From Magnetovibrio sp. (GTDB lineage: Bacteria; Pseudomonadota; Alphaproteobacteria; Rhodospirillales; Casp-alpha2): a stretch of 33,358 nucleotides of DNA. The translations under genes were made by a program, and so were the position numbers. A model generated the notes under the pieces. That model had not been told where the DNA came from. It made no database searches and saw only the letters and a program-made list of their open reading frames with translations. Positions 4,926-27,513 of this stretch are shown in pieces (position 1 is the stretch's first letter; every line of letters starts with the position of its first letter). The stretch lies in contig PARE01000070.1 in NCBI GenBank assembly GCA_002709525.1, forward strand, positions 1-33,358, in the 5' to 3' direction.

Positions 4926-5188
4926 ATTCCCTCCTCCCTAAAATGTAGTATGCGGGTGTGAGTTGGACAATCGGCTCGCGTGTCATTCCTTGAAATTCTT
5001 TGGGCTCATTCGGGCTGCCATCTCTTTTTTGATTTTCTCCCATGCTATCTTATGAAAGAAAGTTTCAAGTTGGATGACTAAATTTGGGCCGATCTTTGGA
5101 CATTTCGCTTTACGATATGAATCTAGCGGGTGCTTTTTATCGATGAACAGGCTATAGGGAAACCGGCTTTAAAAAAGTGGGAGTCTCC

Positions 5189-6169
5189 ATGTCCGTCTTG
5201 ATTACTGGAGTTGCTGGATTCATAGGGTTCCACCTCGCCGAAACCTTGTTGGATCTGGGTCGAAAGGTCGTTGGAGTCGACAATCTGAATGACTATTACG
5301 ATCCGACATTGAAGGACGCACGTCTGGCTCGCCTTAGAGGCCGTGACGGCTTTGTGTTTCACAAATTGGATGTATCGGACCGGGCTAAGGTCGAGACACT
5401 CGCTGCCGAGTACCAGGACCTGACTGGCATTGTCCATTTGGCGGCGCAGGCGGGCGTTCGCTATTCATTAGTGAACCCGTACGCCTATACACAGGCGAAT
5501 GTGGAAGCGCACTTGGTTCTCCTGGAGGCGGCGCGACGGCTGCCTGCCTTGAAGCACTTTGTTTATGCGTCGTCATCGTCGGTCTATGGTGCTAACACGC
5601 ATATGCCGTTCTCCGTCGGTGACCGGACGGATAACCCTGTGTCTCTATATGGCGCTACCAAGAAGACGATGGAGGTGATGAGTGAATCTTATGCTCGCAT
5701 GTGGGGGCTGCCTTTGACGGGTTTGCGGTTTTTTACAGTCTACGGCCCGTGGGGACGACCAGACATGGCAGCGTTTATTTTTCTGAGGAAGATCCTCGCA
5801 GGTGAGGCCATTCCGGTCTTTAATAACGGCGATATGCAACGCGACTTCACCTATGTGGATGACATTGTCGCAGGTGTCGTGGCTTGTCTTGACCAGCCGC
5901 CCGAGGCAAGTGACGACGCGCCATCGCATCGGATTTACAACATAGGCAACAATAATTCTGAATTCCTAATGCGTTTTATCTCGATTATCGAAGAGACCAT
6001 AGGGATCAAAGCAGAAATTGAGTTCTTGCCTATGCAGCCTGGAGACGTGAAGGCAACTTACGCCGATATCGAGGCGACGACGCGGGACTTCGGGTTCGTG
6101 CCATCGACCCCAATTGATGTGGGTTTGCCTAAAGTGATCAAGTGGTATCGCGATTACTACGGTGTTTAG
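5189..6169 (+). CDS. NAD-dependent epimerase/dehydratase, UDP-glucuronate 4-epimerase-like (CapI type)
   Basis: MSVLITGVAGFIGFHLAETLLDLG (Rossmann GxxGxxG), DNLNDYYDPTLK, YGATKKTMEVM (YxxxK), RFFTVYGPWGRPDMA. ATG at 5189 chosen over the upstream start at 5177. Confidence 0.9.
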   Translation: MSVLITGVAGFIGFHLAETLLDLGRKVVGVDNLNDYYDPTLKDARLARLRGRDGFVFHKLDVSDRAKVETLAAEYQDLTGIVHLAAQAGVRYSLVNPYAYTQANVEAHLVLLEAARRLPALKHFVYASSSSVYGANTHMPFSVGDRTDNPVSLYGATKKTMEVMSESYARMWGLPLTGLRFFTVYGPWGRPDMAAFIFLRKILAGEAIPVFNNGDMQRDFTYVDDIVAGVVACLDQPPEASDDAPSHRIYNIGNNNSEFLMRFISIIEETIGIKAEIEFLPMQPGDVKATYADIEATTRDFGFVPSTPIDVGLPKVIKWYRDYYGV

Positions 6170-6172
6170 GTC

Positions 6173-7066
6173 ATGAATGGTGTCCCATTCCGGGATGTAT
6201 TTTGGTTGATCACTCTCGCGCTGGTATGGGGGTCTTCTTTCGCTGCTATTAAGATCGCCGTGGAAACAATGCCACCCATGACCATGGTCGCCGTTCGGAC
6301 AGTCATCGCACTGTGTATGCTGCTGCCCATCATGATTGCCCAAGGTGCAGCCCTGCCTAGGGACATAAAAAGTTGGTATATGGGCGTTGTTTTGGCTGTG
6401 TTCGGATTGGCGCTGCCTTTCTTCCTTATTGGCTGGGGCGAGAAACGGGTGGAAAGTGGACAGGCGGCCATTCTGATGGCGGTCATGCCCATCGCGACCA
6501 TCGCCCTGGCTCATTTTTTCGCACGTGGCGATCAGTTTCACTGGCGCAAACTGGTTGGTATTCTTCTTGGGTTTTTTGGGGTTCTGGTCCTAGTTGGTCC
6601 GGAGGCGCTCAAGGGTCTGGGTGGCCAAATTTGGCATCAACTGGCAATCGCCGGTGCCGCAATTTGTTACGCGATCAATGCGATTGTCACGAGAAACCTG
6701 CCGTCTGGCGGGACGTTAATTGGGCGGGCTGTTATGGTCATGACATGCGGTGTGGCGATCTCGCTACCTTCAGCGATACTGCTCGATGGCGCTACAGCCG
6801 TGTTCGATGCAAGTGCGGAAAGTATTTGGATAACGCTGTATATGGGTGTGTTGCCGACAGGGTTAGCTACACTGATTTATTTTTATATTGTCGAGGCCCA
6901 GGGCCCGTCATTTTTTTCTTTCGTCAATTACCTGAACCCCGTATTTGGCGTTTTGTGGGGGGCATTTCTATTGAGCGAGATCGTGCATCTGGATGCTGTT
7001 CTGGCACTGGTCGCCATTCTCATTGGGGTTGCCATATCTAGCTGGGCGCCAAAAATGAAGCTCTGA
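6173..7066 (+). CDS. EamA/DMT-family inner-membrane transporter
   Basis: 297 aa, about ten hydrophobic segments, N-terminal LALVWGSSFAAIKIAVETMPPMTMVAVR and internal repeat IAGAAICYAINAIVTRNLP...NPVFGVLWGAFLLSE, typical of EamA. Confidence 0.9.
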   Translation: MNGVPFRDVFWLITLALVWGSSFAAIKIAVETMPPMTMVAVRTVIALCMLLPIMIAQGAALPRDIKSWYMGVVLAVFGLALPFFLIGWGEKRVESGQAAILMAVMPIATIALAHFFARGDQFHWRKLVGILLGFFGVLVLVGPEALKGLGGQIWHQLAIAGAAICYAINAIVTRNLPSGGTLIGRAVMVMTCGVAISLPSAILLDGATAVFDASAESIWITLYMGVLPTGLATLIYFYIVEAQGPSFFSFVNYLNPVFGVLWGAFLLSEIVHLDAVLALVAILIGVAISSWAPKMKL

Positions 7067-8027: not shown

Positions 8028-9620
8028 CTAAGCCCGAACGCTGACCCGGCCAGAGACATTTTCTTCCAAGTGAAACGGTTGCTCGGCGATAGCACCGGCG
8101 ACTGGGTTGGCTTTGTCGCCACAACCTTGGGTGTGGCCGCTCGCTGGGTCGCGGAAGACGCCGGACGGACAGGAATAGAGCTTGGGGAACACAAGGTTCT
8201 GGGCGACCTCAAGATTGAAGGAACTTTCCAGGGCGGCTAGCACTTCTTCGCCAGCGGCCGGATCAACCCGTATCGATGCCCGCCCGCCGGCGTCGATCCG
8301 CGGTGTGTTGAAGGCCTCTTCCAAGGACATGCCGTAATCCAGCATAAAGGCGGCCACCTGCATGGTGCAGGGGACTATTTGGTTGGCCCCTGATGCGCCC
8401 ACCGCGAAGATCGCTTCGTCGTCACGGACGCAGACCATGGGGCACATGTTGGACGCATTGATGCGTTTCCCGCCCGCCATGGAGGTCGGATAACCGGGCC
8501 GTGGGTCGAAATAGGAAACAGCGTTGTTCATGAGGACGCCCGACGATGGCAGCACCACTTTAGACCCGAAACGGTTCAGCAGCGTGTATGTAAGAGCGAC
8601 CATATTGCCCTCTGCGTCCACGGCACTCATGTGAGAGGTGCTGCCGGTCTCCGGGAGGCGGCCAAGCCGGCGGTCATGATTATGAAACGCCTGGTTCAGG
8701 GCTCTCGCATAAATTTCGTAGGAATGGGCGCCAAACGGCCGCGATAGGTCCAAGTGTTCGGTGACGAAATTTAGCGCTTCGCCCAGGCGTTGGCCGCCGC
8801 TAGTTTCGCTTGGGGTGTATAGGGTCGCGCCACGGTGATCGTGTACCAGTGGCGTAAGAACCTGTGGACGGTACGCGGCAAAGTCTTCGACGGTTATGCG
8901 GCTGCCACCTTCTTGCAGATCCGCTGCCATGGCTGTTGCGATCGCACCTTTGTAGAAGGCGTCCGGTCCTTCGTCGGCAAGCATCCGCAGGCTCGCTCCG
9001 AGATTGCCAAGGTTGAGAAATTGTTCTGGTTGTGCTGGCGCCCCGCCCGGCAGATAAACCGCTGCACTAGCCGGGAACCGTGCGAGTTCGCCAGCCTCCA
9101 GGCCGATTTGTAGTGTAGCGAACCAGTCTACGGGCAAGCCTCGCTCTGCCAACTGGATCGCCGGCGAAAGCAAAGAGTCGAAACCAAGACGGCCATGTGC
9201 AAGGGCCGCCGCCGACAGGCCCGCTACGGCGCCGGGAACGGAGATCGATTTATAACCGACAACATTGGCGTTTCCGGAAACCCCCGGAAAGCCCATGATG
9301 GCGTTCGGAACACTGGGGTCCAGGGGATAGTCGGCGATGTCAATGGCGTCAGGCAAGGTCCCTTGAAAATCGATTGCGACGGCGCGTCTTTCGTTGGCTA
9401 ACCAGATCACAATATACCCGCTGCCACCCATGCCGCACATCCACGGCTCCACGGCGTTCAATGCGAAGGCGCAGGCAATGGCGGCATCAATAGCGTTTCC
9501 GCCTCGCGACAAGGCATCTGCACCGGCCGCCGCTGACATCCAGTTTTGCGCAGCAACGATCCCTCGCTCTGAGGAAACCGCTCGCTTGCTGACCTGCCAT
9601 TGTTCGACATTACGGTTCAT
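8028..9620 (-). CDS. Gamma-glutamyltransferase family Ntn-hydrolase (substrate not determined)
   Basis: GIVAAQNWMSAAAGADALSRGGNAIDAAIACAFALNAVEPWMCGMGGSGYIVIW; putative processing site STSHMSAVDAEGN; SSGVLMNNAVSYFDP. ATG at 9620 preceded by SD AAGGAG. Confidence 0.88.
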   Translation of the reverse strand: MNRNVEQWQVSKRAVSSERGIVAAQNWMSAAAGADALSRGGNAIDAAIACAFALNAVEPWMCGMGGSGYIVIWLANERRAVAIDFQGTLPDAIDIADYPLDPSVPNAIMGFPGVSGNANVVGYKSISVPGAVAGLSAAALAHGRLGFDSLLSPAIQLAERGLPVDWFATLQIGLEAGELARFPASAAVYLPGGAPAQPEQFLNLGNLGASLRMLADEGPDAFYKGAIATAMAADLQEGGSRITVEDFAAYRPQVLTPLVHDHRGATLYTPSETSGGQRLGEALNFVTEHLDLSRPFGAHSYEIYARALNQAFHNHDRRLGRLPETGSTSHMSAVDAEGNMVALTYTLLNRFGSKVVLPSSGVLMNNAVSYFDPRPGYPTSMAGGKRINASNMCPMVCVRDDEAIFAVGASGANQIVPCTMQVAAFMLDYGMSLEEAFNTPRIDAGGRASIRVDPAAGEEVLAALESSFNLEVAQNLVFPKLYSCPSGVFRDPASGHTQGCGDKANPVAGAIAEQPFHLEENVSGRVSVRA

Positions 9621-9977
9621 TTTTGGCTCCTTGCTGTCGACATAGTGCACTGTGTTTTATCGCGATCACCTGTAGATGCAATCCGATGTTTCTATTGCAC
9701 GGAGGACACAAAGTGGTGGCTTTATATTGATTGAGGTCTCATCGGCCTCTCTAATCTAGGCGGGTTGGCATTGGTGCCTTTGCTGCTCTAGTAGCGTTCT
9801 AAATGGAACTCTTGCCTCGCACCACTGACTTACGGAATATACTGAATGTGTTCGTTAGTTCGTATTCCCGGATTTTGGCACGGATGTTATAACAAACGTG
9901 CTGGATAATCTGCGTCAGGGTCGACCTCAAAGCCAAGTGCCAAATTCATGGTTGAGGCATTGTGAGAGGATATAGAT

Positions 9978-13667: not shown

Positions 13668-14948
13668 GTGAGCAATATCATGAACATTAGCGTTTCCAGA
13701 AGCACCAGCGCTGCTATTTTGTCGCGGTTGGATACCCTGGCGCATTTAAGTGAGTCCGATGATGGCCTCACGCGACAATACTTGTCGGTAGAACATCGCA
13801 AGGCCAATGAGCTAGTTGGTAGCTGGATGCGTGAGGCCGGCATGCGGGTTCACCAGGACGCTATCGGCAATATCATTGGCCGTTACGAGGGCGAGCACGA
13901 GGGCGCGCCTGCGCTTCTTATCGGGTCGCATTTGGATACGGTTGTGATGGCAGGAAAATACGACGGCATGCTGGGTGTCGTCACAGCGATCCAATGCGTG
14001 CAAGACCTCCATAACCGTGGAATTCAAATGCCGTTTGCCATCGAAGTGATTGGTTTTGCAGATGAAGAAGGTGTCCGTTTTCAGTCCACCTATTTGGGCA
14101 GTCGTGCTATTGCAGGAACATTTCGTAAGGAGTTGTTGGAGGCCCGTGATGCGAACGGCATGACCATGGCCGACGCGCTTCGCGCATTCGGCTTAGATCC
14201 GAGCCAGATCAATACAGCTGCGAAGCGGTCGGAGGATGTAATTGCATATTTGGAACTGCATATTGAACAGGGACCAGTATTGGAAAGTAAGGGTGAACCG
14301 GTTGGTGTGGTGACTGCCATAGCCGGCGCAACACGCCGGCTAGTAACTCTCTCGGGGGTCGCTGGTCATGCTGGGACAGTGCCTATGGATCATAGGCAAG
14401 ACGCGCTTTTGGCAGCTGCAGAATGTTCTTTAGCGGTGGAGAAGGTAGCCGCCAAGCGAACCCATTGCGTGGCCACAGTTGGTCGCATGGAGGTCTCGCC
14501 TGGAGCGACTAATGTTATTCCGGGCAGCGTTACATTTTCGATTGATATTCGCGCCGATGAGGACGTCAAGCGCACCGAGGCTCTTGCCGAGTTGGACCCG
14601 TGGTTAACAAAAATTGCAGAGAATCGGGGATGCACGTTGAATGTGGAAACTGTGCACGAAGCCGATAGCGTTGCCTGTGCACCTTGGATTGTCAGACAGA
14701 TTGAGAATGCTATTTCGACTGACAAAAGCCGTGTCGTCCGTCTACCCAGTGGCGCTGGTCACGATGCTGCGGCCATGGCGGACTTGACGGACGTCGGAAT
14801 GATTTTCGTGCGCTGCGCTGGCGGCATCAGTCACAACCCCGATGAAACCATCACTGAAGCTGACGCTGGCACTGGTGCCGATCTTCTGTTGCAGATCATT
14901 GAGAACTTCCGCGTGGAGGACCATTCATGCTCGATAGAGAGCACGTGA
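13668..14948 (+). CDS. allC: Allantoate amidohydrolase (M20 family; N-carbamoyl-L-amino-acid hydrolase superfamily)
   Basis: LIGSHLDTVVMAGKYDGMLGVV, GFADEEGVRFQSTYLGSRAIAG, HIEQGPVLES, AGHAGTVPMDHRQDAL, SGAGHDAAAMAD. Context (pucG, allFGH) supports allantoate. GTG start at 13668 or ATG at 13680. Confidence 0.85.
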   Translation: MSNIMNISVSRSTSAAILSRLDTLAHLSESDDGLTRQYLSVEHRKANELVGSWMREAGMRVHQDAIGNIIGRYEGEHEGAPALLIGSHLDTVVMAGKYDGMLGVVTAIQCVQDLHNRGIQMPFAIEVIGFADEEGVRFQSTYLGSRAIAGTFRKELLEARDANGMTMADALRAFGLDPSQINTAAKRSEDVIAYLELHIEQGPVLESKGEPVGVVTAIAGATRRLVTLSGVAGHAGTVPMDHRQDALLAAAECSLAVEKVAAKRTHCVATVGRMEVSPGATNVIPGSVTFSIDIRADEDVKRTEALAELDPWLTKIAENRGCTLNVETVHEADSVACAPWIVRQIENAISTDKSRVVRLPSGAGHDAAAMADLTDVGMIFVRCAGGISHNPDETITEADAGTGADLLLQIIENFRVEDHSCSIEST

Positions 14949-15238
14949 GCATTTCGGATACTCTGTGCCAAACTCGGCACTGTACATTGACGTATCTGAG
15001 CAAAAGGTCGCGCCTCCGCCGCGACAGCAGCCGAGCTACTACGTTGAACGCAACCCGCGACGGCGGAGTTGTTGTCTCTCCTTGGGGCGAGGCTACTGGC
15101 CACCGTGACATGATAAAACTCCGACTTGACGATCTGGAGAAAGCGATGATCGTAGATGCTGAAATTATACTTGATCTGATGAGCTCGTTCGCATCGCTGC
15201 GGGCAGGAGGGAATACGAATGAATGCACTTGTGCCTGA
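14927..15238 (+). CDS. Hypothetical 103-aa protein filling the allC-pucG gap
   Basis: Complete ORF with SD GGAGGA at 14915-14920, 6 nt before ATG 14927; overlaps the allC end (14948) and pucG start (15219). No recognised family; Arg/Ser/Thr-rich middle is atypical. Confidence 0.4.
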   Translation: MLDREHVSISDTLCQTRHCTLTYLSKRSRLRRDSSRATTLNATRDGGVVVSPWGEATGHRDMIKLRLDDLEKAMIVDAEIILDLMSSFASLRAGGNTNECTCA

Positions 15239-16472
15239 AATCTTTCAGGAACTGGATCCAAGCCCACGCCTGATCATGGGCCCTGGACCTGTGGACGTCT
15301 ACCCGCGCGTCCTGCGTGCCATGTCGGTCCCTATGTTGGGTCAGTTTGATCCCGAGTTCACTGAATACATGAATGAGACTATGGCGCTCTACCGGCAGAT
15401 TTATCAAACACAGAACCAATGGACTTTTTTGATAAATGGCACGGCCCGCGCGGGCATTGAGGCCTGTCTGGGGTCGTTGTTGTCCTGTGGAGATAAGGTG
15501 CTGGTACCCCGGTTTGGACGGTTCGGATATCTTCTTACTGAAATTGCCCAGCGGGTCGGTGGCGACGTGATAACCCTGGATACCGAGTGGGGCACGGTCT
15601 TCGAGACCGACAGGGTCTGCGATGCGATATACAAACACCGGCCGCGCGTTGTTGCGCTTGTTCATGGCGATACCTCAACGACGATGGCGCAACCCCTGGA
15701 CGGGATTAGTGCAGTTTGCCGAGAGGTCGACGCGTTGTTATACGTGGACACGACGGCAACTCTGTGCGGCATGCCTATTCCTGTTGATGATCTGCAATTG
15801 GATGCGGTGAGCACCGGACTGCAGAAATGTATGTCTGGTCCTCCCGGCACTTCGCCTATCACTATCAACGAACGTGCCGCCGCCGTGGTCAACAATCGCA
15901 AGCACATTGAAGGAGGAATTCGACCTGATGACTATGTGGCCGGTGACGGCCCGAAGATCATTTCCAACTATCTGGATCTGGGCATGCTGATGGATTACTG
16001 GAGCCCAAAGCGTCTCAACCACCATACGGAGTCTACCTCCATGCTCTATGCCGCAAGGGAATGTGCACGTGTGATTTTGGAAGAAGGACTGGATGCTGGG
16101 TTTGCCCGTCACGAAACGGCTAGCCGAGCCCTGCGGTCTGGTCTCAAGGCCATGGGATTGAAACTATTTGGCGACCAAAACAACAGCATGACCAACGTCA
16201 CTGGTGTCATGATCCCAGAAGTCTGCGGAGACGGTGAGGGCGTTCGCAGTGAAATGCTGCACGATTTCAGTATCGAGATTGGAACTTCATTTGGGCACCT
16301 GGCCGGCATGATCTGGCGTATTGGTACGATGGGTTATGTCTGTCGAAAATCCAATGTCCTGCGCTGTGTGAATGCTCTGGACGCGGTGCTGCGTCGGCAC
16401 GGTTTTGATGCCCCAGCTAATGCTGGAGTGGATGCGGTCCTGAACATTTATTCAGGGGGTCCAGATGACTAA
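15219..16472 (+). CDS. pucG: (S)-ureidoglycine-glyoxylate aminotransferase, class V aminotransferase (PucG-like)
   Basis: LIMGPGPVDVYPRVLRAMSVPMLGQFDPEFTEYMNETMALYRQIYQT, VHGDTSTTMAQPLDGI, DAVSTGLQKCMSGPPGTSP (PLP-lysine region). SD AGGAGG before ATG at 15219. Confidence 0.88.
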   Translation: MNALVPEIFQELDPSPRLIMGPGPVDVYPRVLRAMSVPMLGQFDPEFTEYMNETMALYRQIYQTQNQWTFLINGTARAGIEACLGSLLSCGDKVLVPRFGRFGYLLTEIAQRVGGDVITLDTEWGTVFETDRVCDAIYKHRPRVVALVHGDTSTTMAQPLDGISAVCREVDALLYVDTTATLCGMPIPVDDLQLDAVSTGLQKCMSGPPGTSPITINERAAAVVNNRKHIEGGIRPDDYVAGDGPKIISNYLDLGMLMDYWSPKRLNHHTESTSMLYAARECARVILEEGLDAGFARHETASRALRSGLKAMGLKLFGDQNNSMTNVTGVMIPEVCGDGEGVRSEMLHDFSIEIGTSFGHLAGMIWRIGTMGYVCRKSNVLRCVNALDAVLRRHGFDAPANAGVDAVLNIYSGGPDD

Positions 16473-16644
16473 AGATTTGACCCAAGACCTGCTGCACGAG
16501 CCTCTGTCAGTGATCAATATTGGTTTGGAAGGGTTCTGCGCGGAGCTAAAGGCACAGCGGGTAGAGGTCATTCAGGTCAATTGGGCCCCACCCGCAGGCG
16601 GCGACCCAAGGTTGGCCGATCTTTTGGCTAAATTAGGGTCATAG
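16465..16644 (+). CDS. 59-aa FdrA-domain-like small protein (detached AllF C-terminal segment candidate)
   Basis: Own translation: MTKDLTQDLLHEPLSVINIGLEGFCAELKAQRVEVIQVNWAPPAGGDPRLADLLAKLGS*. SD AGGGGG at 16454-16459; overlaps pucG by 8 nt and ends 3 nt before allG. Below the apparent ORF-track length cutoff. Resembles the xNxGLxxFxxxLxxQxxxVxxVxWxPxAGGxxxLxxLL segment recalled for FdrA proteins. Confidence 0.8.
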   Translation: MTKDLTQDLLHEPLSVINIGLEGFCAELKAQRVEVIQVNWAPPAGGDPRLADLLAKLGS

Positions 16645-16647
16645 AAC

Positions 16648-17898
16648 ATGCAGCGAATTGAGAAGGCTAACCAAAAGGCTATAGATCGCATGGTCGCGGG
16701 AGATCCAGTACTGGTGGACGTAATCCCTGCAGCTAGGGCTATTCCCGCACTCAAAGACCGAATGATCCTGCATGCTGGGCCACCGATTGAATGGGGTCGC
16801 ATGTGCGGTCCGATGCGCGGTGCGATCATGGGCATTGCTGTGTTTGAAGGCTGGGCTGATGACCTGGCTGAGGCGGAGTCTATGGCTGCAGCCGGTGAGT
16901 TTGAGTTTCATCCCAATCATCATTTCGATGCTGTCGGCCCAATGACTGGTATGACCACCTTCAGTCAGCCTTTGATGGTGGTGGAGAACGCGACTTATGG
17001 TAACCGAGCTTATTGCGCCATCAATGAAGGCCTGGGCAAGGTAATGCGGTTCGGTGGGAACGATGCAGAGGTATTAGAGAGGTTATGCTGGCTGCGTGAC
17101 GATTTTGGCCCATCCTTAGGTCGGGCTCTTAGGCATATGGATGGTTTGCCATTAAAAAGTCTTGTAGCACGCGGACTTACCATGGGTGATGAAATGCACC
17201 AGCGTAACGTCGCTTGTTCGGGGTTGACGCTTCGCGCCCTGTCCCCAGTTTTGGCGGCTACCTCGGATACTAATGAAGCTTTGGCAAAAGCTTTGGCGTT
17301 CATGGGTGACAATGACCAATTCTTTCTCAATATCGCAATGGCCATGGGTAAATCGATTATGGATCCGGTGCGTGATATTGAGGGTGCTTCCGTTGTTACG
17401 GCAATGTGTCGGAATGGTACGGATTTTGGTATTCGCGTCAGTGGTACGGGAGATGCCTGGTTTACCTCTCCCGTGGAGATGCCGGCGGGATTGTATTTCC
17501 CGGGTTTTACCGAAAAAGACGCGAACCCGGACATGGGAGACTCTACTATCGTTGAGACCATCGGCCTGGGCGGGTTTGCTATGGGCGCGGCGCCGGCAGT
17601 GGCAGGTTTTGTAGGGGCTGGCGCGGCGTCAGAGGCTGGTCATTACACTCGCACCATGTCGGAAATCGCGATTGCTGAGAATCCAGAATGGACAATTCCT
17701 TCCATGGATTATCTTGGGGTGCCAACGGGAATTGATATCCGGCTAGTTGTAGAAACAGGTCTTGCGCCAACAATAAATACTGGCATCGCGCACAGGGAAC
17801 CTGGAGTTGGTCAGGTTGGCGCAGGCGTAGTACGCGCACCCATGGCCTGTTTTGAAAAAGCCCTTTTGGCACTTGCTGCCAGTTTGGGTGTGTCATGA
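16648..17898 (+). CDS. allG: DUF1116/YlbE family protein, oxamic transcarbamylase subunit AllG
   Basis: 416 aa: QRIEKANQKAIDRMVAGDPVLVDVIPAARAIPAL, HAGPPIEWGRMCGPMRGAIMGI, GEFEFHPNHHFDAVGPMTGMTTFSQPLMVVEN, GLTMGDEMHQRNVA. Typical DUF1116, next to FdrA and carbamate kinase. Confidence 0.88.
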   Translation: MQRIEKANQKAIDRMVAGDPVLVDVIPAARAIPALKDRMILHAGPPIEWGRMCGPMRGAIMGIAVFEGWADDLAEAESMAAAGEFEFHPNHHFDAVGPMTGMTTFSQPLMVVENATYGNRAYCAINEGLGKVMRFGGNDAEVLERLCWLRDDFGPSLGRALRHMDGLPLKSLVARGLTMGDEMHQRNVACSGLTLRALSPVLAATSDTNEALAKALAFMGDNDQFFLNIAMAMGKSIMDPVRDIEGASVVTAMCRNGTDFGIRVSGTGDAWFTSPVEMPAGLYFPGFTEKDANPDMGDSTIVETIGLGGFAMGAAPAVAGFVGAGAASEAGHYTRTMSEIAIAENPEWTIPSMDYLGVPTGIDIRLVVETGLAPTINTGIAHREPGVGQVGAGVVRAPMACFEKALLALAASLGVS

Positions 17899-19391
17899 GC
17901 GCAGTCATTATCAATGAAGTTCGTAAAGGCTTCTACCTCGACTCTGTCGCTCTCATGCGCATGTCTCGAACAGTGGCTGACCTGGACGGTGTCGAGGAGG
18001 CTGCAATGATGATGGGGACCCCATCGAACATACAAATCATGGAGGATGCGGGGCTTCTTGAGGAATTAGGGAAGAGCGCAGGTGGGGGTGACCTGATAAT
18101 TGGCATTCGCGCCGTAGATGTGGCCTCGGTGGAATTAGCGCGGGATAAAGCAAATGAGCAGTTGGACGCTCCCGCAGCGCGAGGCGGTGACGGTGAGGCG
18201 TGGCGTCCTCGCACCTTGCGTGCGGCTGTTAGGGAAGTGCCCGACGCCAATTTGGCTCTGATCTCGGTGCCGGGTGATTTCGCGATTGCGGAAGCGCGAA
18301 AAGCTATTCGCCGTGGTCTTCATGCAATGATTTTTAGCGACAACGTAGAAGTGGAAGCAGAAGCTGAATTGAAGCGAGAAGCACAGGATCTAGGCCGCTT
18401 GGTCATGGGTCCCGATTGTGGCACTGCCATTATAAACGGCACGCCGCTTGCCTTCGCTAATGTGGTGTCCCGTGGAGGCATCGGCATTGTTGGTGCCTCC
18501 GGCACTGGAACCCAGGAGGTAAGCTGCTTGATCTCTCAATATGGTGGGGGAATTTCGCATGCGATAGGCGTTGGCGGTCGCGATTTGAACAGCGAAGTGG
18601 GCGGGATCTCCACGGTTATGGCTATCGATAGTTTGTGTCATGACCAGGCGACAGAACATATCGTTTTGATCTCAAAGCCCCCTCCCGCTGAGGTGGCCTC
18701 AAGGGTCCTGGATCGCATTGCGATTAGTCACAAGCCGGCAACCATTTGCTTCATTGGCGCTAGTGACCTCCCCATGCCTGACAATGCAACCCAGGTATTC
18801 AACCTCCGCGCGGCCGCGCGAGCAGCGCTGGGCTTGGATGATAGTAACCAAGCCACTCCAAAAGTGAGTTTTGTATCGGTATCGGGTCGGTCCCAGATCC
18901 AAGGATTGTATTCTGGCGGAACCCTTTGCGCTGAAGCGCAAGTTCTTCTCCGCGCGGCCGAACTGGCGATTTGCTCCAATGCGCCTGTGCCCGGCGTGCC
19001 GAATTTGATTGATGCAAATACTGGTCATCGTCTGCTGGATCTAGGCGATGACCAATACACCCAGGGGCGTCCGCACCCAATGATTGAACCTGGCGTGCGT
19101 GACGATGCAATTATCGCGGCTTTGAATAACCCAGAGATCGCGATTATCCTCGTCGATGTGGTAATTGGTTATGGCGCACACCTTGATCCCGCTGGCCACT
19201 TGGTCGCCGTGCTTTCCGCCAATTCTCTTCCGGACGCGCCGTTAGTCATCGCCTCTGTCACGGGCACAGATGAAGACCCGCAGGTGCGGTCCGCGCAGAT
19301 GGCCAAACTTGCTGATGCCGGCGTCCAGGTAGCGCCGACCAATGCTGATGCTGCCCAATGGGCTATCGAACTTATCAACGTGGCCAGTTGA
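17895..19391 (+). CDS. allF: FdrA family protein (succinyl-CoA synthetase-like), oxamic transcarbamylase subunit AllF
   Basis: YLDSVALMRMSRTVADLDGVEEAAMMMGTPSN, VMGPDCGTAIINGTPLAFANVV, GGIGIVGASGTGTQEVSCLISQYGGGISHAIGVGGRDLNSEVGG. ATGA overlap with allG stop. Ends at ...WAIELINVAS without the NxGLxxF segment. Confidence 0.9.
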   Translation: MSAVIINEVRKGFYLDSVALMRMSRTVADLDGVEEAAMMMGTPSNIQIMEDAGLLEELGKSAGGGDLIIGIRAVDVASVELARDKANEQLDAPAARGGDGEAWRPRTLRAAVREVPDANLALISVPGDFAIAEARKAIRRGLHAMIFSDNVEVEAEAELKREAQDLGRLVMGPDCGTAIINGTPLAFANVVSRGGIGIVGASGTGTQEVSCLISQYGGGISHAIGVGGRDLNSEVGGISTVMAIDSLCHDQATEHIVLISKPPPAEVASRVLDRIAISHKPATICFIGASDLPMPDNATQVFNLRAAARAALGLDDSNQATPKVSFVSVSGRSQIQGLYSGGTLCAEAQVLLRAAELAICSNAPVPGVPNLIDANTGHRLLDLGDDQYTQGRPHPMIEPGVRDDAIIAALNNPEIAIILVDVVIGYGAHLDPAGHLVAVLSANSLPDAPLVIASVTGTDEDPQVRSAQMAKLADAGVQVAPTNADAAQWAIELINVAS

Positions 19392-19400
19392 GAGTTCACC

Positions 19401-20369
19401 ATGGTCAATCCGTTCGATATCCCCGATCGGATACTTGTTGCCATTGGTGGCAATGCGACTCATCCGGAAGATATTGAGGGCACGTCACGCGAACAAAAGA
19501 TAATCGCGGCTAATACTGCAAAGGCTCTATTGCCGTTGGCGTTGATAGATAACGAGCTCGTGGTGACCCATGGTAATGGACCGGTGGTGGGTAAAATTCT
19601 TATGCGCCAAGCCCTGACCAGCGACACCATAGCGCCGATGCCGCTGGATATCTGTGTTGGTCACTCCCAGGGAGGTATTGCCTATCTATTGGTACAGGCT
19701 CTTGAGAACGCGCTGCGGGAAGTTGACAGCTCCCGCCATGCAGCTTGCCTGCTGACCCAGGTGGAGGTCGATGAAGACGATCCTGCCTTTGATGATCCCA
19801 GCAAGTTCATTGGTGCCTTCTACACCGAGGAGGAAGCCCGTCGCATTGAAGCTGAGATGGGTTGGCAAATGAAGGAAGATTCTGGGCGCGGCTGGCGGCA
19901 TGTGGTACCATCTCCAAAACCGCAGCATGTTTGCGATATCTCCCTGGTCCAGGTGCTTGCGCGCCGTGGCACCATTGTGATCGCTGGCGGTGGCGGCGGC
20001 ATTCCTGTCGTTCGTGGTCCCAAAGGCGTTAGACGAGGTGTGCAGGCGGTCATCGATAAGGACCTCACTTCGGCTCACATGGCCAATGTCTTGGGTATTG
20101 AACTTCTGATGATCCTCACTGCCGTGTCCAGGGTGGCTGTTGATTTTGGAAAACCGGGTCAGCGTGAACTCGATCAAGTTACCATGCGTGAGCTACGAGC
20201 ATTGCACGCTGAAGGACATTTTCCACCCGGCAGCATGGGACCGAAGATTGAGGCTGCATTACGGTTTCTCGAAGGTGGAGGTGAGCGGGTAATAATCGCA
20301 CACCTGGATGAAGCTATGACCGCGCTCCATGGTGAGGCCGGTACCCACATCCTTGCCGACGATGCTTGA
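19401..20369 (+). CDS. allK: Carbamate kinase (ArcC/AllK)
   Basis: ILVAIGGNATHPED, VVTHGNGPVVGKILMRQ, CVGHSQGGIAYLLVQAL, IVIAGGGGGIPVV, AVIDKDLTSAHMANVLGIELLMILTAV, GSMGPKIEAALRFLEGGGERVIIAHLDEA. Canonical carbamate kinase motifs. Confidence 0.95.
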   Translation: MVNPFDIPDRILVAIGGNATHPEDIEGTSREQKIIAANTAKALLPLALIDNELVVTHGNGPVVGKILMRQALTSDTIAPMPLDICVGHSQGGIAYLLVQALENALREVDSSRHAACLLTQVEVDEDDPAFDDPSKFIGAFYTEEEARRIEAEMGWQMKEDSGRGWRHVVPSPKPQHVCDISLVQVLARRGTIVIAGGGGGIPVVRGPKGVRRGVQAVIDKDLTSAHMANVLGIELLMILTAVSRVAVDFGKPGQRELDQVTMRELRALHAEGHFPPGSMGPKIEAALRFLEGGGERVIIAHLDEAMTALHGEAGTHILADDA

Positions 20370-21297
20370 TGCCTATAACCCCTGGCAAGTAACGGCTCAT
20401 TCCATCGGGCCAATGGCAAGACGGGCGCTAAATGGATCAATGTTGGGTGAAGTTTGTGCGGTCTTTGCACGGACATTCTATATCCGAACAGAGAACTGCC
20501 TTCTGTGTGTTGCTACCGGCGATGTGTATAATGGCCCTTTGACAATCGTGACTAGCGCGCCTGAGACGACGAATTGGCAGGCGAGTGGTGTGCGCGTTCG
20601 ACAGCGCGTCGTTCTGCAGTCCCGTAGAATAGCGGTTGGAATGATGTTGGTTATTCCCTATGGGGAAGCTACCGAGTGGATGCCGCCACGCCCACATGCC
20701 AATGATAAGGAAATGACCTCAAAAGGCATCGCCAATTTACGCGCGAAGGTTGTCGATAGATTGCCACGGAATGGTCTGGCAGAATTCGTGGTGCGGTCGA
20801 GCTTGAATATTAGATCTTCTCTCGCTGTAGTTGCCAAAGGGCCAATCCGCCGAATAAGTTCAGCATTGTCCGTGGCGCTGTTCAGACGCCGGCTTTTTCA
20901 GCCATCGCCAGTCGATGTGGCAGCCCTGTTGGGGCTGGGCCCTGGTTTGACTCCGTCTGGCGATGATTTTTTGGGCGGTATGATGGTCGGTCTGTATGCA
21001 GTTCGCGAGGATGGCTTTGCGAAGGACCTTTGGCGGATTATTAACGATTGCGACGAGAGTTCGGCAAATATCGTTTCCTGGGCGCACTTGCGTGGGGCAG
21101 CCCATGGTCTAGCGGCCGACAGTATACTCCGTTTGACGTGCATTGTTAGTTCAGGCGGAGAACCTGATGATGAGATACTTGCAGCTATCGATCGAATTGG
21201 CCATACGTCGGGTTGGGATATGGTTGCCGGATTGGTCGTCGTTCTCGAGACTTGGACAGGTGTGATGGACAACACTTCAACAAACAGAGAAAATTGA
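20362..21297 (+). CDS. allH: DUF2877 family protein, oxamic transcarbamylase subunit AllH (YlbF)
   Basis: LLGLGPGLTPSGDDFLGGMMVGLYAVRE is the DUF2877 hallmark. ATG at 20362 overlaps the carbamate kinase stop by 8 nt. Confidence 0.85.
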   Translation: MLDAYNPWQVTAHSIGPMARRALNGSMLGEVCAVFARTFYIRTENCLLCVATGDVYNGPLTIVTSAPETTNWQASGVRVRQRVVLQSRRIAVGMMLVIPYGEATEWMPPRPHANDKEMTSKGIANLRAKVVDRLPRNGLAEFVVRSSLNIRSSLAVVAKGPIRRISSALSVALFRRRLFQPSPVDVAALLGLGPGLTPSGDDFLGGMMVGLYAVREDGFAKDLWRIINDCDESSANIVSWAHLRGAAHGLAADSILRLTCIVSSGGEPDDEILAAIDRIGHTSGWDMVAGLVVVLETWTGVMDNTSTNREN

Positions 21298-22889
21298 TGC
21301 TTCATACTCCACGATCCTATGGCGGCATGGTCACGGCGCCGCATCATCTAGCCGCGCGCGCCGGGCTGCGCGTGCTTGAAGAGGGCGGTAATGCGATTGA
21401 GGCTATGGTGGCCGCGGCGGCGGCCATTACAGTGGTTTATCCTCACATGAATGCGCTGGGTGGTGATAATTTCTGGCTCATTCATACGCCGGGTAGTGAG
21501 GTCACCGGCATTGATGCTTGTGGAGCTGCGGCTGCCCTGGCTGATATAGATTATTATCGCGGACAAGGTCATAAGGGTATTCCGTCGCGCGGCGCTAAGG
21601 CGGCTCTCACGGTGGCGGGTGCCGTTTCAGGTTGGGAGGAAGCGCTTAGGTTCAGCAAGGAGACGTGGGGAGGAACCATGTCCTTAAGCCGCCTTCTTGA
21701 GGATGCCGTGCACTACGCAGAGGATGGTGCGGCTGTGACCAGGACCCTGGCCTTTAATGCTCTGATCAAACATGATGAGCTCAAGGATGCTCCCGGTTTC
21801 ATTGATAATTTCATCATCGATGGCGCTCTGCCGATAGAGGGTCAGCGTTTCCGCCAACCTCGGATTGCCGCGACATTTAGGCGCTTGGCCGAACACGGGT
21901 TGGATGATTTTTATCGCGGAGAACTCGCGCGGGAAATTGCTGCGGATCTCGAGCGCGCCGGTTCGCCCCTGCGACTGGAAGATTTAGAACGTCATAAGGC
22001 TCTTCAGGTTAAGCCGCTCTCCTTGCGTGTCGCTGGGCATGATGTCTTCAACATGCCTCCGCCAACACAGGGTCTAGCCTCGCTGCTTCTCCTGGGCGTA
22101 TATGATCGCCTTGGGGTTTGTGTGGCTGAGGATTTTGACTTTATCCATGGCCTTGTTGAGGCGACCAAACGCGCTTTTCGGATCCGGGATCGCTATGTCA
22201 CCGATCCGGCCTACATGGATATTGATCCGGTTAACTTTCTTAATGGCACAAGGTTGGACGCAATGGCCGCCGACATCCACGCAGAGCAAGCATTGCCGTG
22301 GCCAGATCCGGTCCAAAAGGGTGATACAGTTTGGTTGGGTGCGGTTGACAAGGAGGGCCGCGCAGTCAGTTTCATTCAGAGCATTTATTGGGAATTTGGC
22401 TCGGGTACGGTGCTCGAAAACTCGGGGATCATGTGGCAGAATCGCGGCACCAGTTTTTCCCTTGATCCAGTGCACCATAATTGTCTGAAGCCGCACCGTC
22501 GACCATTTCATACGATTCAGCCCGCAATGGCGCGCCTGGCAGATGGACGTGTTATGTCGTATGGAACCATGGGTGGCGAGGGACAGCCGCAGACCCAGGC
22601 CATGGTGTTCACGCGCCACGTCATGTACGGCCAAGGTTTGCAAGAGGCGGTTACGGCGCCGCGGTGGCTGCTTGGACGGACCTGGGGAGCAGCGACGACG
22701 AACCTCCGTGTTGAAAACCGGTTTGACCCGGCCGTCATCCAGGACCTTCGGAATGCGGGGCATGACATTGAGGAGATTGGTGATTTTGACGAGGTTATGG
22801 GACACGCTGGCGCTCTGGTGCGCCATCCAAATGGATTGATTGAGGGTGCAGCCGATCCGCGCGGTGACGGTGCTGCCGCCGGCGCCTAA
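21297..22889 (+). CDS. hpxW: Gamma-glutamyltransferase-family Ntn-hydrolase, candidate oxamate amidohydrolase (HpxW-like)
   Basis: SYGGMVTAPHHLAARAGLRVLEEGGNAIEAMVAAAAAITVVYPHMNALGGDNFWLIH; putative processing site KGDTVWLGAVDKEGRAVSFIQSIYWEFGSG with Thr344 (codon 22326-22328). ATG overlaps the allH stop. HpxW identity rests mainly on context. Confidence 0.72.
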   Translation: MLHTPRSYGGMVTAPHHLAARAGLRVLEEGGNAIEAMVAAAAAITVVYPHMNALGGDNFWLIHTPGSEVTGIDACGAAAALADIDYYRGQGHKGIPSRGAKAALTVAGAVSGWEEALRFSKETWGGTMSLSRLLEDAVHYAEDGAAVTRTLAFNALIKHDELKDAPGFIDNFIIDGALPIEGQRFRQPRIAATFRRLAEHGLDDFYRGELAREIAADLERAGSPLRLEDLERHKALQVKPLSLRVAGHDVFNMPPPTQGLASLLLLGVYDRLGVCVAEDFDFIHGLVEATKRAFRIRDRYVTDPAYMDIDPVNFLNGTRLDAMAADIHAEQALPWPDPVQKGDTVWLGAVDKEGRAVSFIQSIYWEFGSGTVLENSGIMWQNRGTSFSLDPVHHNCLKPHRRPFHTIQPAMARLADGRVMSYGTMGGEGQPQTQAMVFTRHVMYGQGLQEAVTAPRWLLGRTWGAATTNLRVENRFDPAVIQDLRNAGHDIEEIGDFDEVMGHAGALVRHPNGLIEGAADPRGDGAAAGA

Positions 22890-23444: not shown

Positions 23445-23682
23445 TCCTGTTTCCCCGTGTTATTCATATTTTCTTGGATAATTTTAATTATTATCAAAAA
23501 ATAACGGATGGTTCGCATCATTTGTTGGTTTATGATGTTGAGTCCAGCGATGCTGCAATCCGCCCCTTTGATTGCGTATTCCGGTCGTTTGGGCAAGGCC
23601 GAAGGTTGCCTGGGAGACCAATAGGGAAGAAAAAAGCCGGACCGGTCGTCGTGGGCCGGAAGTCGGGACGATGGGGATAGCT

Positions 23683-26600
23683 ATGCGCGACCATGTAACG
23701 TTTCGTCTCAATGATGAGGTTCAAGTTCTTCGCGACGTTTCGCCGACGTTGACGTTGCTGGAATTTTTGCGTGAGCGTAGACGCCTGACAGGGACCAAGG
23801 AAGGGTGTGCGGAAGGTGACTGTGGCGCTTGCACCGTTGCCGTCGGAGGATTGGTAGATGGAGAGGTGTCTTATCAGGCAATCAATGCCTGCATCCAATT
23901 CGTTGGGATGCTTGAAGGGAAATCGATTCGCACTGTCGAGGCCTTAAAAGCGCCCAACGGTCAATTGCACCCGGTCCAGCAGGCGATGGTTGATGAGCAT
24001 GGATCCCAATGTGGATTTTGTACGCCGGGGTTCATCATGTCTATTTACGCAGCTTACATTATGGATCACCCCATGGACGCAGATGCGAGCCCCGATTTGC
24101 TGGCGGGTAATCTTTGTCGGTGCACGGGCTACGGCCCGATCGCGGCAGCGGCGGCAAAGTTAGCGGCGTATGAAAAACCGGATTGGGATAGGGCGCGATT
24201 GCGAGCGGATCAACGCTGGGTCCGCGAGGCAGCAGACACCGAAACTGTAGATTTCTTTTGTAGTGGCCAGAGGTTTGTCTCGCCGGGAACCCTGGACGAT
24301 TTGGCTCGTATTTATGCGGCCGAGCCCAACGCGACCTTGGTAGCTGGTGCCACCGATGTGGGATTGTGGGTCACGAAAATGCACCGAAAATTAGACACGG
24401 TAATACATCTTGGTCGTGTTCGTGAACTGAAGTCGATCGTCGATGATGGTGAGAAGTTGAGTATTGGTGCGGGTGTTACGTACTCTCAGGCTTTGGAAAC
24501 TATGGCCATTTATTTTCCCGATTTTGCGGAGATGACCCGTCGCATCGGTGCGGTTCAAATTCGCAATGTCGGCACCATTGGCGGTAACGTAGCGAACGGA
24601 TCACCAATCGGCGATACCCTGCCGGCGCTGATTGTTTTGGATGCGTCGCTTGTCCTTCGAAAGGGTAATGAATTACGACGCATCGCCATCGAAGAATTTT
24701 TTGTGGAATACGGCAAACAGGACCGGGCGTCTGGAGAGTTCCTGGAAGCGATCGAAATTCCCTTGCCCGGACCGGGCATGGCACTCAGGTGCTACAAGAT
24801 TTCCAAACGCTTCGATCAGGATATTTCAGCAGTCTGTGGTTGCATGGCTGTGCGTGTTGAGGGCGGCAGGGTGATCGATGCGCGAATTGCATATGGTGGC
24901 ATGGCAGGGACGCCAGAGCGGGCTCATACGGTGGAAGGGGCCTTAATCGGTCAGGATTGGAGCGAAGCGACAATCAATGCCATCATGGGTGCGTTTGACA
25001 ATGATTTCGCGCCAATTTCGGATATGCGTGCCAGTGCTACGTATCGTCAGGAGGTGGCTGCAAATTTGCTGAAACGCTATTTCCAAGAAACTTCTGGAAA
25101 CGTGGCAAAAACGCGCCTCGTCGGGATTGGTGCTGATATTGGTGGTCCGCGACTTGATAGTTCGATTGTCACTACGCCGACTGTCATGAAGAGTATTGCG
25201 GGTGATGTTGAGACCCCCCAAAGGCACGACAGCAGCCATAAGCACATCGCGGGCGAGGCCGTTTTCGTTGATGATATTCCAACACCGAAAGGTACCTTGG
25301 CCGTCCACGTCGCTATGAGCACGAAAGCGCATGCAAAGATTGTGGATCTTGATCTATCCCCTGTTCGCGCGGCTCCTGGCGTTGTGTGTGTTGTTGCAGC
25401 TGCCGATATTCCCGGTAAGAACGATATCAGTCCGGTCATGGGTGATGACCCTCTGTTTGCCGAGGGAGTAGTGGAATACGCCGGCCAGTCCCTGTTCGCC
25501 GTGGGGGCGGAGACGATTGAGAGGGCCCGTGATGCCGCGGCCTTGGCGCGTATTTTCTATGAAGACCTGCCCGCTGTCATTTCTATTGACGAGGCAATGG
25601 ATCAGGGTTCCTTGTTGGAGGAACCGTATGTCATGTCCCGTGGTGATGCGCAGGCGGCTATCGATGGCGCTGTGCACTCGTTGTCTGGCCGTGTTTACGT
25701 GGGCGGGCAGGAACATTTCTATCTGGAAGGCCAAGCAGCGTTAGCTCTACCAGGTGAGGACGGCGATATTACATTACATAGTTCGACGCAACATCCCAGT
25801 GAAATCCAGCATACCATTGCCAAGCTTCTGGGTCTCGCAAACAATGCGGTTACGGTTGAGGTCCGCCGTATGGGTGGAGCCTTTGGCGGCAAGGAGAGCA
25901 ATGGTAATCTGCCGGCAGCGGCAGCGGCACTAATCGCTTCAAAGACGGGCCGCGCCGCGAAGGTTCGTTACGATCGTGATCAAGACATGATCATTACGGG
26001 CAAGCGTCATGACTTCCGTATCGACTACGAGGTAGGGTTCGATAATAACGGCCGGATCGAAGGCATTGACTTCCAACAGGCTGCTCGGTGCGGCATGTCC
26101 TATGATCTGTCCGTACCCATTTGTGACCGAGCCATGTTTCATGCGGATAATACTTATTATCTGCCCAACGTGAAGATAACGTCCTATCGATGTAAAACCC
26201 ACACAGTTTCGAATACTGCGTTTCGAGGGTTCGGCGGACCTCAGGGTATGGTTGGCATTGAACGCGTGGTGGACGAAATTGCCCATTATTTGGGCAAGGA
26301 TCCTATCGAAGTGCGACGCGTTAATTTTTACGATCCAAAAGGAGCAGTAAAAGACCGCGCTGTTACCCCTTATGATATGACCGTGGAAGACTGTGTGATT
26401 GATGAAATTGTCAGTGAACTGGGAAGAACTGCTGACTACGATAGACGACGCGCTGACATTCGAGAATGGAACCAAACCAGTCAAACCCTTAAAAGAGGGA
26501 TTGCTCTTACACCGGTGAAATTCGGTATCTCATTTACTCTCACTTTTCTCAATCAGGCTGGCGCTCTTGTTCATATCTATAATGATGGTTCAATACATTT

Positions 26601-27513
26601 GAACCACGGTGGCACCGAAATGGGCCAGGGCTTGTTCACTAAGGTGGCGCAAGTAGCAGCCCGATCTTTTCAGGTTGACATTGATCGGATCAAGATCACC
26701 GCGACTCATACGGGAAAAGTCCCTAATACGTCGGCGACGGCGGCCTCTAGTGGGTCAGATTTAAACGGTATGGCAACAGCTGATGCTTGTACAAAGATTA
26801 AGAAACGGCTTCAGAACTTCGCTGCTGAGCGCTGGCAGACGTCGCCGGATGAGGTGAAATTTTATCCCGGCCGAGTGCAGGTTGGCTGCGATACGATATC
26901 TTTTGATGAATTAATCTACGAGGCTTATCAGGCGCGTGTTCCCCTATCCGCAACAGGGTTTTACGCGACGCCAAAAATTAACTGGAATAAAGCACAGGCA
27001 AAAGGTCGGCCATTTTTTTACTTTGCATATGGTGCTGCTGTCACAGAGGTGGCCATTGATACCCTGACGGGAGAAAACCGTATGCTCCGAGTCGATATCT
27101 TGCATGATGTGGGCAAGTCGTTGAACCCGGCGATTGACCTTGGTCAAATTGAAGGCGGTTTCATTCAGGGCGCCGGCTGGTTGACCACGGAGGAACTCTG
27201 TTGGGATGACGAAGGCCATCTTCGCACGTATGCGCCGTCAACTTACAAGATCCCCACTCTGGGCGACCGGCCGCCAGATATGCGGATCAATATTTGGGCT
27301 CCAGGCGAGAATGTGGAGCAGACGATCCATAGATCCAAGGCGGTTGGTGAACCGCCATTAATGTTGGGTATCTCTGCATTAATGGCCCTGTCTGATGCTG
27401 TTGCTGCTGCTGGTGACTATGTGCATTATCCACAATTGAACGCGCCAGCTACACCAGAGCGTGTGCTTGCGGCCGTGCGTCGTGTCATGGCGAATGAAGA
27501 GACTGCATTATGA
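23683..27513 (+). CDS. xdh: Xanthine dehydrogenase, single chain (2Fe-2S x2 + FAD + molybdopterin domains)
   Basis: GCAEGDCGACTVAVGG and QCGFCTPGFIMS...AGNLCRCTGYGPI; FAD region IGGNVANGSPIGDTLPAL; Moco region GQEHFYLEGQAAL, RMGGAFGGKES, NTAFRGFGGPQGM, GGTEMGQGL, KAVGEPPLMLG. Start at 23683 (23671 and 23572 possible). Confidence 0.93.
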   Translation: MRDHVTFRLNDEVQVLRDVSPTLTLLEFLRERRRLTGTKEGCAEGDCGACTVAVGGLVDGEVSYQAINACIQFVGMLEGKSIRTVEALKAPNGQLHPVQQAMVDEHGSQCGFCTPGFIMSIYAAYIMDHPMDADASPDLLAGNLCRCTGYGPIAAAAAKLAAYEKPDWDRARLRADQRWVREAADTETVDFFCSGQRFVSPGTLDDLARIYAAEPNATLVAGATDVGLWVTKMHRKLDTVIHLGRVRELKSIVDDGEKLSIGAGVTYSQALETMAIYFPDFAEMTRRIGAVQIRNVGTIGGNVANGSPIGDTLPALIVLDASLVLRKGNELRRIAIEEFFVEYGKQDRASGEFLEAIEIPLPGPGMALRCYKISKRFDQDISAVCGCMAVRVEGGRVIDARIAYGGMAGTPERAHTVEGALIGQDWSEATINAIMGAFDNDFAPISDMRASATYRQEVAANLLKRYFQETSGNVAKTRLVGIGADIGGPRLDSSIVTTPTVMKSIAGDVETPQRHDSSHKHIAGEAVFVDDIPTPKGTLAVHVAMSTKAHAKIVDLDLSPVRAAPGVVCVVAAADIPGKNDISPVMGDDPLFAEGVVEYAGQSLFAVGAETIERARDAAALARIFYEDLPAVISIDEAMDQGSLLEEPYVMSRGDAQAAIDGAVHSLSGRVYVGGQEHFYLEGQAALALPGEDGDITLHSSTQHPSEIQHTIAKLLGLANNAVTVEVRRMGGAFGGKESNGNLPAAAAALIASKTGRAAKVRYDRDQDMIITGKRHDFRIDYEVGFDNNGRIEGIDFQQAARCGMSYDLSVPICDRAMFHADNTYYLPNVKITSYRCKTHTVSNTAFRGFGGPQGMVGIERVVDEIAHYLGKDPIEVRRVNFYDPKGAVKDRAVTPYDMTVEDCVIDEIVSELGRTADYDRRRADIREWNQTSQTLKRGIALTPVKFGISFTLTFLNQAGALVHIYNDGSIHLNHGGTEMGQGLFTKVAQVAARSFQVDIDRIKITATHTGKVPNTSATAASSGSDLNGMATADACTKIKKRLQNFAAERWQTSPDEVKFYPGRVQVGCDTISFDELIYEAYQARVPLSATGFYATPKINWNKAQAKGRPFFYFAYGAAVTEVAIDTLTGENRMLRVDILHDVGKSLNPAIDLGQIEGGFIQGAGWLTTEELCWDDEGHLRTYAPSTYKIPTLGDRPPDMRINIWAPGENVEQTIHRSKAVGEPPLMLGISALMALSDAVAAAGDYVHYPQLNAPATPERVLAAVRRVMANEETAL

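Follow-up and report, generated by a model that had tools for sequence, protein, structure and literature searches.

What is a 59-aa open reading frame (ORF) doing directly in front of allG in a cluster that appears to encode an oxamate carbamoyltransferase? The ORF, here called module m, lies at positions 16465 to 16644 of the forward strand of a 33,358-nt stretch of contig sequence from Magnetovibrio sp., and this whole stretch is referred to below as the window. It was not until 2024 that AllFGH was recognized as a transcarbamylase, one that has no relation to the classical family. In E. coli, allFGH encodes an oxamic transcarbamylase of three polypeptides with an AllF of 555 aa, and it is only for E. 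coli AllFGH that the conversion of oxamate and carbamoyl phosphate to oxalurate has been demonstrated (PMC11326118). The description in the literature covers three genes, without setting apart the segment that is of concern here (PMC11326118), and a 2025 survey of nitrifiers likewise lists only allFGH (PMC12625717). Our literature search found no text that separates this segment and no use of the term "fdrA domain". The results described below indicate that the enzyme known as three proteins is probably four in the window genome.

The genes of the cluster are arranged on the forward strand in the order m-allG-allF-allK-allH. The allG gene (16648 to 17898, 416 aa; Pfam AllG PF06545) begins right at the AllG core and is without module m, and allF (17895 to 19391, 498 aa; FdrA family, PF00549/NF004760) is without the C-terminal segment of its E. 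coli counterpart. These are followed by an allK-type carbamate kinase gene (19401 to 20369, 322 aa; arcC/carbamate kinase models), allH (20329 to 21297, 322 aa; Pfam AllH PF11392), a gamma-glutamyltransferase-family gene, and then genes for xanthine dehydrogenase, an XdhC accessory protein, and an ABC transporter. A pucG-like class-V aminotransferase gene (15219 to 16472) precedes module m directly, and an allantoate amidohydrolase gene lies at 13668 to 14948, both also on the forward strand. By its gene content, the region is assigned to purine and allantoin catabolism. Homologues of AllF, AllG, and AllH are present together with a carbamate kinase, and it is this context that suggests an oxamate carbamoyltransferase of the AllFGH type; some relatives, of the YahFG type, may act on another ureide. 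Instead of two subunits, xanthine dehydrogenase is encoded here (23572 to 27513, forward strand) as a single polypeptide of 1313 aa, to which the XdhA and XdhB models both match over their full length. Gamma-glutamyltransferase-family genes are found on both sides of the region, at 21213 to 22889 on the forward strand and at 8028 to 9650 on the reverse strand. The former, beside allH, could presumably be an HpxW-like oxamate amidohydrolase.

The ORF of module m is complete, with an ATG start and a TAG stop. Its start overlaps the stop of the pucG-like ORF by 8 nt, only 3 nt separate it from the ATG of allG, and the sequence AGGGGG at 16454 to 16459, located 5 nt before its own ATG, is a likely ribosome-binding site. 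All of this agrees with an earlier reading made from the DNA sequence alone, which had also proposed that the peptide resembles the C-terminus of FdrA and that the neighboring AllF ends before any such segment. Both of these proposals were borne out. The 59-aa peptide, which is encoded once in the source genome, matches the NCBIfam FdrA model NF004760 at positions 505 to 554 of 555 (E-value 3.1e-12) and at no other part of the profile, and it matches residues 426 to 473 of PDB entry 3dmy, E. coli FdrA (E-value 1e-6). The window AllF aligns to positions 6 to 494 of the same model and ends there, such that each match covers a part of the model that the other leaves uncovered. AllF relatives that carry no fused segment all end at this same point in the alignment. 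Because the peptide shares ancestry with the C-terminal segment of E. coli FdrA/AllF, and because the window AllF is without that segment, the enzyme in this genome probably includes a fourth polypeptide, as the sequence-only reading had anticipated.

A search of Pfam with the 59-aa peptide matched no domain. Similarly, 57 of 58 sampled m sequences match NF004760, and no Pfam domain is common to them. When the m profile was compared with solved structures, only 3dmy gave a convincing match (E-value 1.4e-17). Module m is thus a small domain absent from Pfam. Its signature comprises the near-invariant motifs N-x-G-x3-F and W-x-P-x-A. In a collection that includes some duplicates, the G and F are each present in 190 of 190 sequences, the W in 190 of 191, and the P in 191 of 191, and the N (180 of 190) and A (177 of 190) are conserved nearly as well. 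The window peptide has all six residues (N18, G20, F24, W40, P42, and A44).

To place module m among its relatives, 85,462 species genomes were scanned with an AllG alignment, which yielded 80 named loci. These were combined with loci from whole-genome searches and with records from E. coli, Peptoclostridium, and Vibrio, and all were classified with profiles for AllF, AllG, AllH, AllK, and module m. The module occurs in four states, all of which carry the signature described above. In architecture A, m is fused to the C-terminus of AllF and AllG is separate, as in E. coli allF, Bacillaceae, Paenibacillus, Staphylococcus, Lactobacillaceae, and Gilliamella. In architecture B, which extends over many phyla, AllF is without m, which instead forms the N-terminus of AllG, as in E. 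coli yahF-yahG, Sporomusa, Peptoclostridium, Chloroflexota, and several proteobacteria. Free m constitutes architecture C, with the order m-allG-allF in the window and its relatives, Bradyrhizobium, Afipia, Microvirga, and Granulosicoccaceae, and the order allF-m-allG in Fusibacter, Oscillospiraceae, and a Chloroflexi metagenome-assembled genome (MAG). Architecture D is a single AllF-m-AllG chain of approximately 1000 aa and is found in Clostridium, Halolactibacillus, Amphibacillus, Lacticigenium, Propionivibrio, and Oscillibacter. The collection, which includes some duplicate loci and is weighted toward the best matches of one AllG alignment, contains 36 representatives of A, 81 of B, 63 of C, and 11 of D.

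Comparison with characterized or annotated systems helps to define what is unusual about the window. As in the window, the E. coli FdrA-YlbE-YlbF (AllFGH) cluster unites homologues of AllF, AllG, AllH, and AllK, and it includes the m segment, which there forms the C-terminal end of AllF (555 aa). However, the E. coli enzyme consists of three polypeptides, whereas in the window m is a separate gene and AllF has 498 aa, and the E. coli gene order is allF-allG-allH-allK rather than m-allG-allF-allK-allH. The second E. coli operon, yahF-yahG (L033), is paralogous to the first, and E. coli as a species therefore has both A and B architectures. YahF, like the window AllF, is an AllF homologue (515 aa) without the segment, which again lies directly 5' of the AllG core, but in this case m forms the N-terminal part of the YahG chain itself (472 aa). 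The single chains of Clostridium, Halolactibacillus, Lacticigenium, and others (L084, L099, and L081) contain all three elements, in the order AllF, m, and AllG, but joined in one chain. More distantly, NDP-forming acyl-CoA synthetases and succinyl-CoA synthetase have CoA-binding and CoA-ligase folds in common with AllF, but no module m was found in them, and AllFGH is a carbamoyl transferase.

The distribution of module m follows that of AllF. Among 399 Bacillota genomes, AllF was found in 57 and m in precisely these 57, when hits were accepted at E-values, computed per genome, of at most 0.001 for m and at most 1e-60 for AllF. Module m is present in 101 of the 102 loci in which AllG and AllF occur with enough upstream sequence; in the remaining one, the AllG is the second of a tandem pair that follows a single m. 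Where a genome has only distant homologues of AllG, a true AllF is absent and AllG has no m next to it. Because of these patterns, we conclude that m goes with AllF and that its usual place is just 5' of allG; indeed, in nearly all loci with both AllG and AllF, the segment is located there wherever allF is. Adjacency to allG is not universal. Free m follows AllF with no AllG within approximately 1.5 kb in six locus records that represent five distinct places (among the loci are L118, L117, L185, L187, and L194), and in L194 a carbamate kinase gene comes next. A search for m in other contexts among 385 alphaproteobacterial, 399 Bacillota, and 301 Chloroflexota genomes returned none, and in every m-bearing locus examined, AllF or AllG is either beside m or in frame with it.

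Two loci, L058 and L059, were considered as examples of AllG lacking m and were rejected, since those genomes carry AllF with m elsewhere. Their bare AllG genes (5001 to 6245 in each) are paralogues with neither AllF nor m adjoining, located downstream of an amidohydrolase-like ORF, and they suggest that AllG may also be used without AllF. Separately, five clostridial loci (L092, L156, L157, L169, and L170) have two AllG matches in tandem behind a single m and AllF. The second match is a gene in L092, and the others are possibly split matches.

How did m come to be a free gene in the window? Trees were built for AllG (108 rows) and AllF (74 rows), and these require 13 and 9 changes of architecture, respectively, and one change of gene order each. 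Both are quick searches with an uncertain root and uneven sampling, and ancestral states were reconstructed with a simple equal-rates model. The window falls in a clade composed only of proteobacterial C and B forms, all with the order allG-allF. At the base of this clade, m-AllG is reconstructed with a probability of 0.97 on the AllG tree and 0.92 on the AllF tree. Because the clade mixes free m with m-AllG, and because m-AllG is reconstructed as ancestral, the free gene of the window was more likely split from an m-AllG fusion than from AllF.

It could be argued instead that m began as a separate gene located between allF and allG and was joined to one neighbor or the other many times independently, in which case the window would preserve the ancestral free state. 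Free m does occur in several separate lineages (Alphaproteobacteria, Clostridia, Chloroflexota, and Granulosicoccaceae), and the 13 or 9 state changes required by the trees are in keeping with repeated fusion. The inner nodes, however, are reconstructed as m-AllG with probabilities of 0.92 to 1.0 under equal rates, a result that weighs only weakly against a free ancestor given the uncertain root and uneven sampling. We regard a free ancestor as somewhat unlikely, and we continue to favor separation from an m-AllG fusion.

The natural fusions also provide clues regarding where m might reside in the complex. In B and D chains, the gap between m and AllG has a median of 5 to 6 residues (range −1 to 13), whereas in A and D chains the gap between AllF and m is 12 to 36 residues (median 30). 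The short and nearly constant linker on one side and the longer linker on the other suggest that m lies near the N-terminal end of AllG, with a looser tether to AllF. An AlphaFold2 (AF2) model of the natural AllF-m-AllG chain from Clostridium (L084, 999 aa), computed from 73 sequences with four rows from annotated plasmid records left out of the alignment, has a pLDDT of 91.4 and a pTM of 0.82. Module m is well ordered in this model and adopts a helix-strand-helix-strand-helix arrangement. The AllG portion of the model superposes on 3clq (TM 0.95 of target), and the AllF portion can be superposed on 3dmy only by allowing for large shifts between domains (rmsd approximately 20 Å over the whole alignment), such that the modeled orientation of the AllF domains and of m is tentative. 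The window peptide modeled alone has the same order of elements with moderate confidence (pLDDT 80, pTM 0.47), and its best PDB match is again 3dmy, at a nonsignificant E-value of 0.16. Confidence is lowest in the second half, which holds the W-x-P-P-A-G-G loop.

Together, the single-chain fusions and the AF2 model support the view that m may be physically part of the complex, where it would most likely be a small alpha/beta domain at the interface of AllF and AllG. Under the mechanism we propose, m would sit at the AllG N-terminus, as the 5- to 6-residue linker of the fused proteins implies, and the longer linker of 12 to 36 residues would allow it to reach AllF. From this position, it could bridge the two large subunits, complete an active site via the residues of N-x-G-x3-F and W-x-P-x-A, or do both, and its conserved loop may become ordered by contact with these partners. 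In the window lineage, where m would be made separately, assembly would have to be non-covalent.

Alternatively, m might be a conserved regulatory or assembly peptide, such as a folding aid or an allosteric subunit, that acts outside the catalytic interface. In being small, and in occurring as a free gene in many genomes, it resembles small assembly factors, and in a few loci it is found beside AllF with no AllG. But in about two thirds of the classified loci m is covalently joined in one chain with AllF, AllG, or both, every AllF-bearing genome of the Bacillota sample retains it, and four of its residues hardly vary in any of the states, a pattern that better fits a structural or active-site element. 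A purely accessory role consequently appears unlikely. Our preferred reading, to which we assign a high probability, is that the ORF encodes a fourth component of an AllFGH-type oxamate carbamoyltransferase, namely an alpha-beta-alpha-beta-alpha domain of approximately 50 residues that works with AllF and AllG and was probably split from m-AllG.

A broader proposal, for which we see about even chances, is that oxamate carbamoyltransferase is in general a four-domain machine composed of AllF, m, AllG, and AllH. The module would shift among partners (AllF, AllG, both, or neither, with at least nine changes on the trees) while holding the catalytic interface, and its free form would be an independent and essential subunit missed by the three-gene description. 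If m is required, three-gene reconstitution from alphaproteobacterial or clostridial genomes would likely fail. More immediately, what we describe is a recently recognized enzyme in a split-subunit form, together with a small domain that has no Pfam model. A 59-aa gene without such a model may be skipped by annotation pipelines. The architectures of m account for the tail of E. coli AllF that many homologues are without, and they direct attention to the AllF-AllG interface in the search for mechanism and assembly. The existence of both AllF-m-AllG single chains and genomes with free m makes the role of the module directly testable.

The sequence-only reading had offered a different origin for the ORF, in which an E. 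coli-like AllF was split in the window lineage and its C-terminal segment was relocated in front of allG. In its favor, E. coli FdrA, which is the best known member of the family, has the segment at its C-terminus, and the window AllF stops where the segment would start. The trees do not support it. With the exception of one long-branched row (L103), the AllF-m and AllF-m-AllG proteins form one strongly supported clade away from the window, and the window lineage is not nested among AllF-m forms in either the AllG or the AllF tree. The clade of the window holds only free-m and m-AllG forms, an AllF-m state at its base has a probability of approximately 0 under equal rates, and m already adjoins allG in almost every architecture. 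A split of AllF is therefore very unlikely. The gene order is better read as a change in the place of allF while m stayed beside allG, and the fusion of m to AllF that is known from E. coli is probably derived.

There is a negligible chance that the ORF is a fortuitous frame or a decayed remnant with no protein product, as its shortness might lead one to ask, and we rejected this reading because of the profile match, the intact frame in dozens of free homologues at a conserved position, and low dN/dS values. These values are mostly 0.07 to 0.35 among free copies, with many synonymous distances near saturation such that close pairs carry the weight, and pairs of free m from Bradyrhizobium give 0.07 to 0.12. 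On these grounds, we consider the ORF to be genuine, conserved, and under purifying selection.

Two loci show unusual forms of the module. In a Defluviicoccus MAG (L061, 2996 to 3235), free m carries an in-frame expansion that repeats the PPAGG loop, and a close relative (L066) is without the expansion. On a Vibrio diabolicus plasmid (L036, 4067 to 4153), an m-AllG gene is apparently truncated within m and has transposase genes on both sides, and it is probably a remnant.
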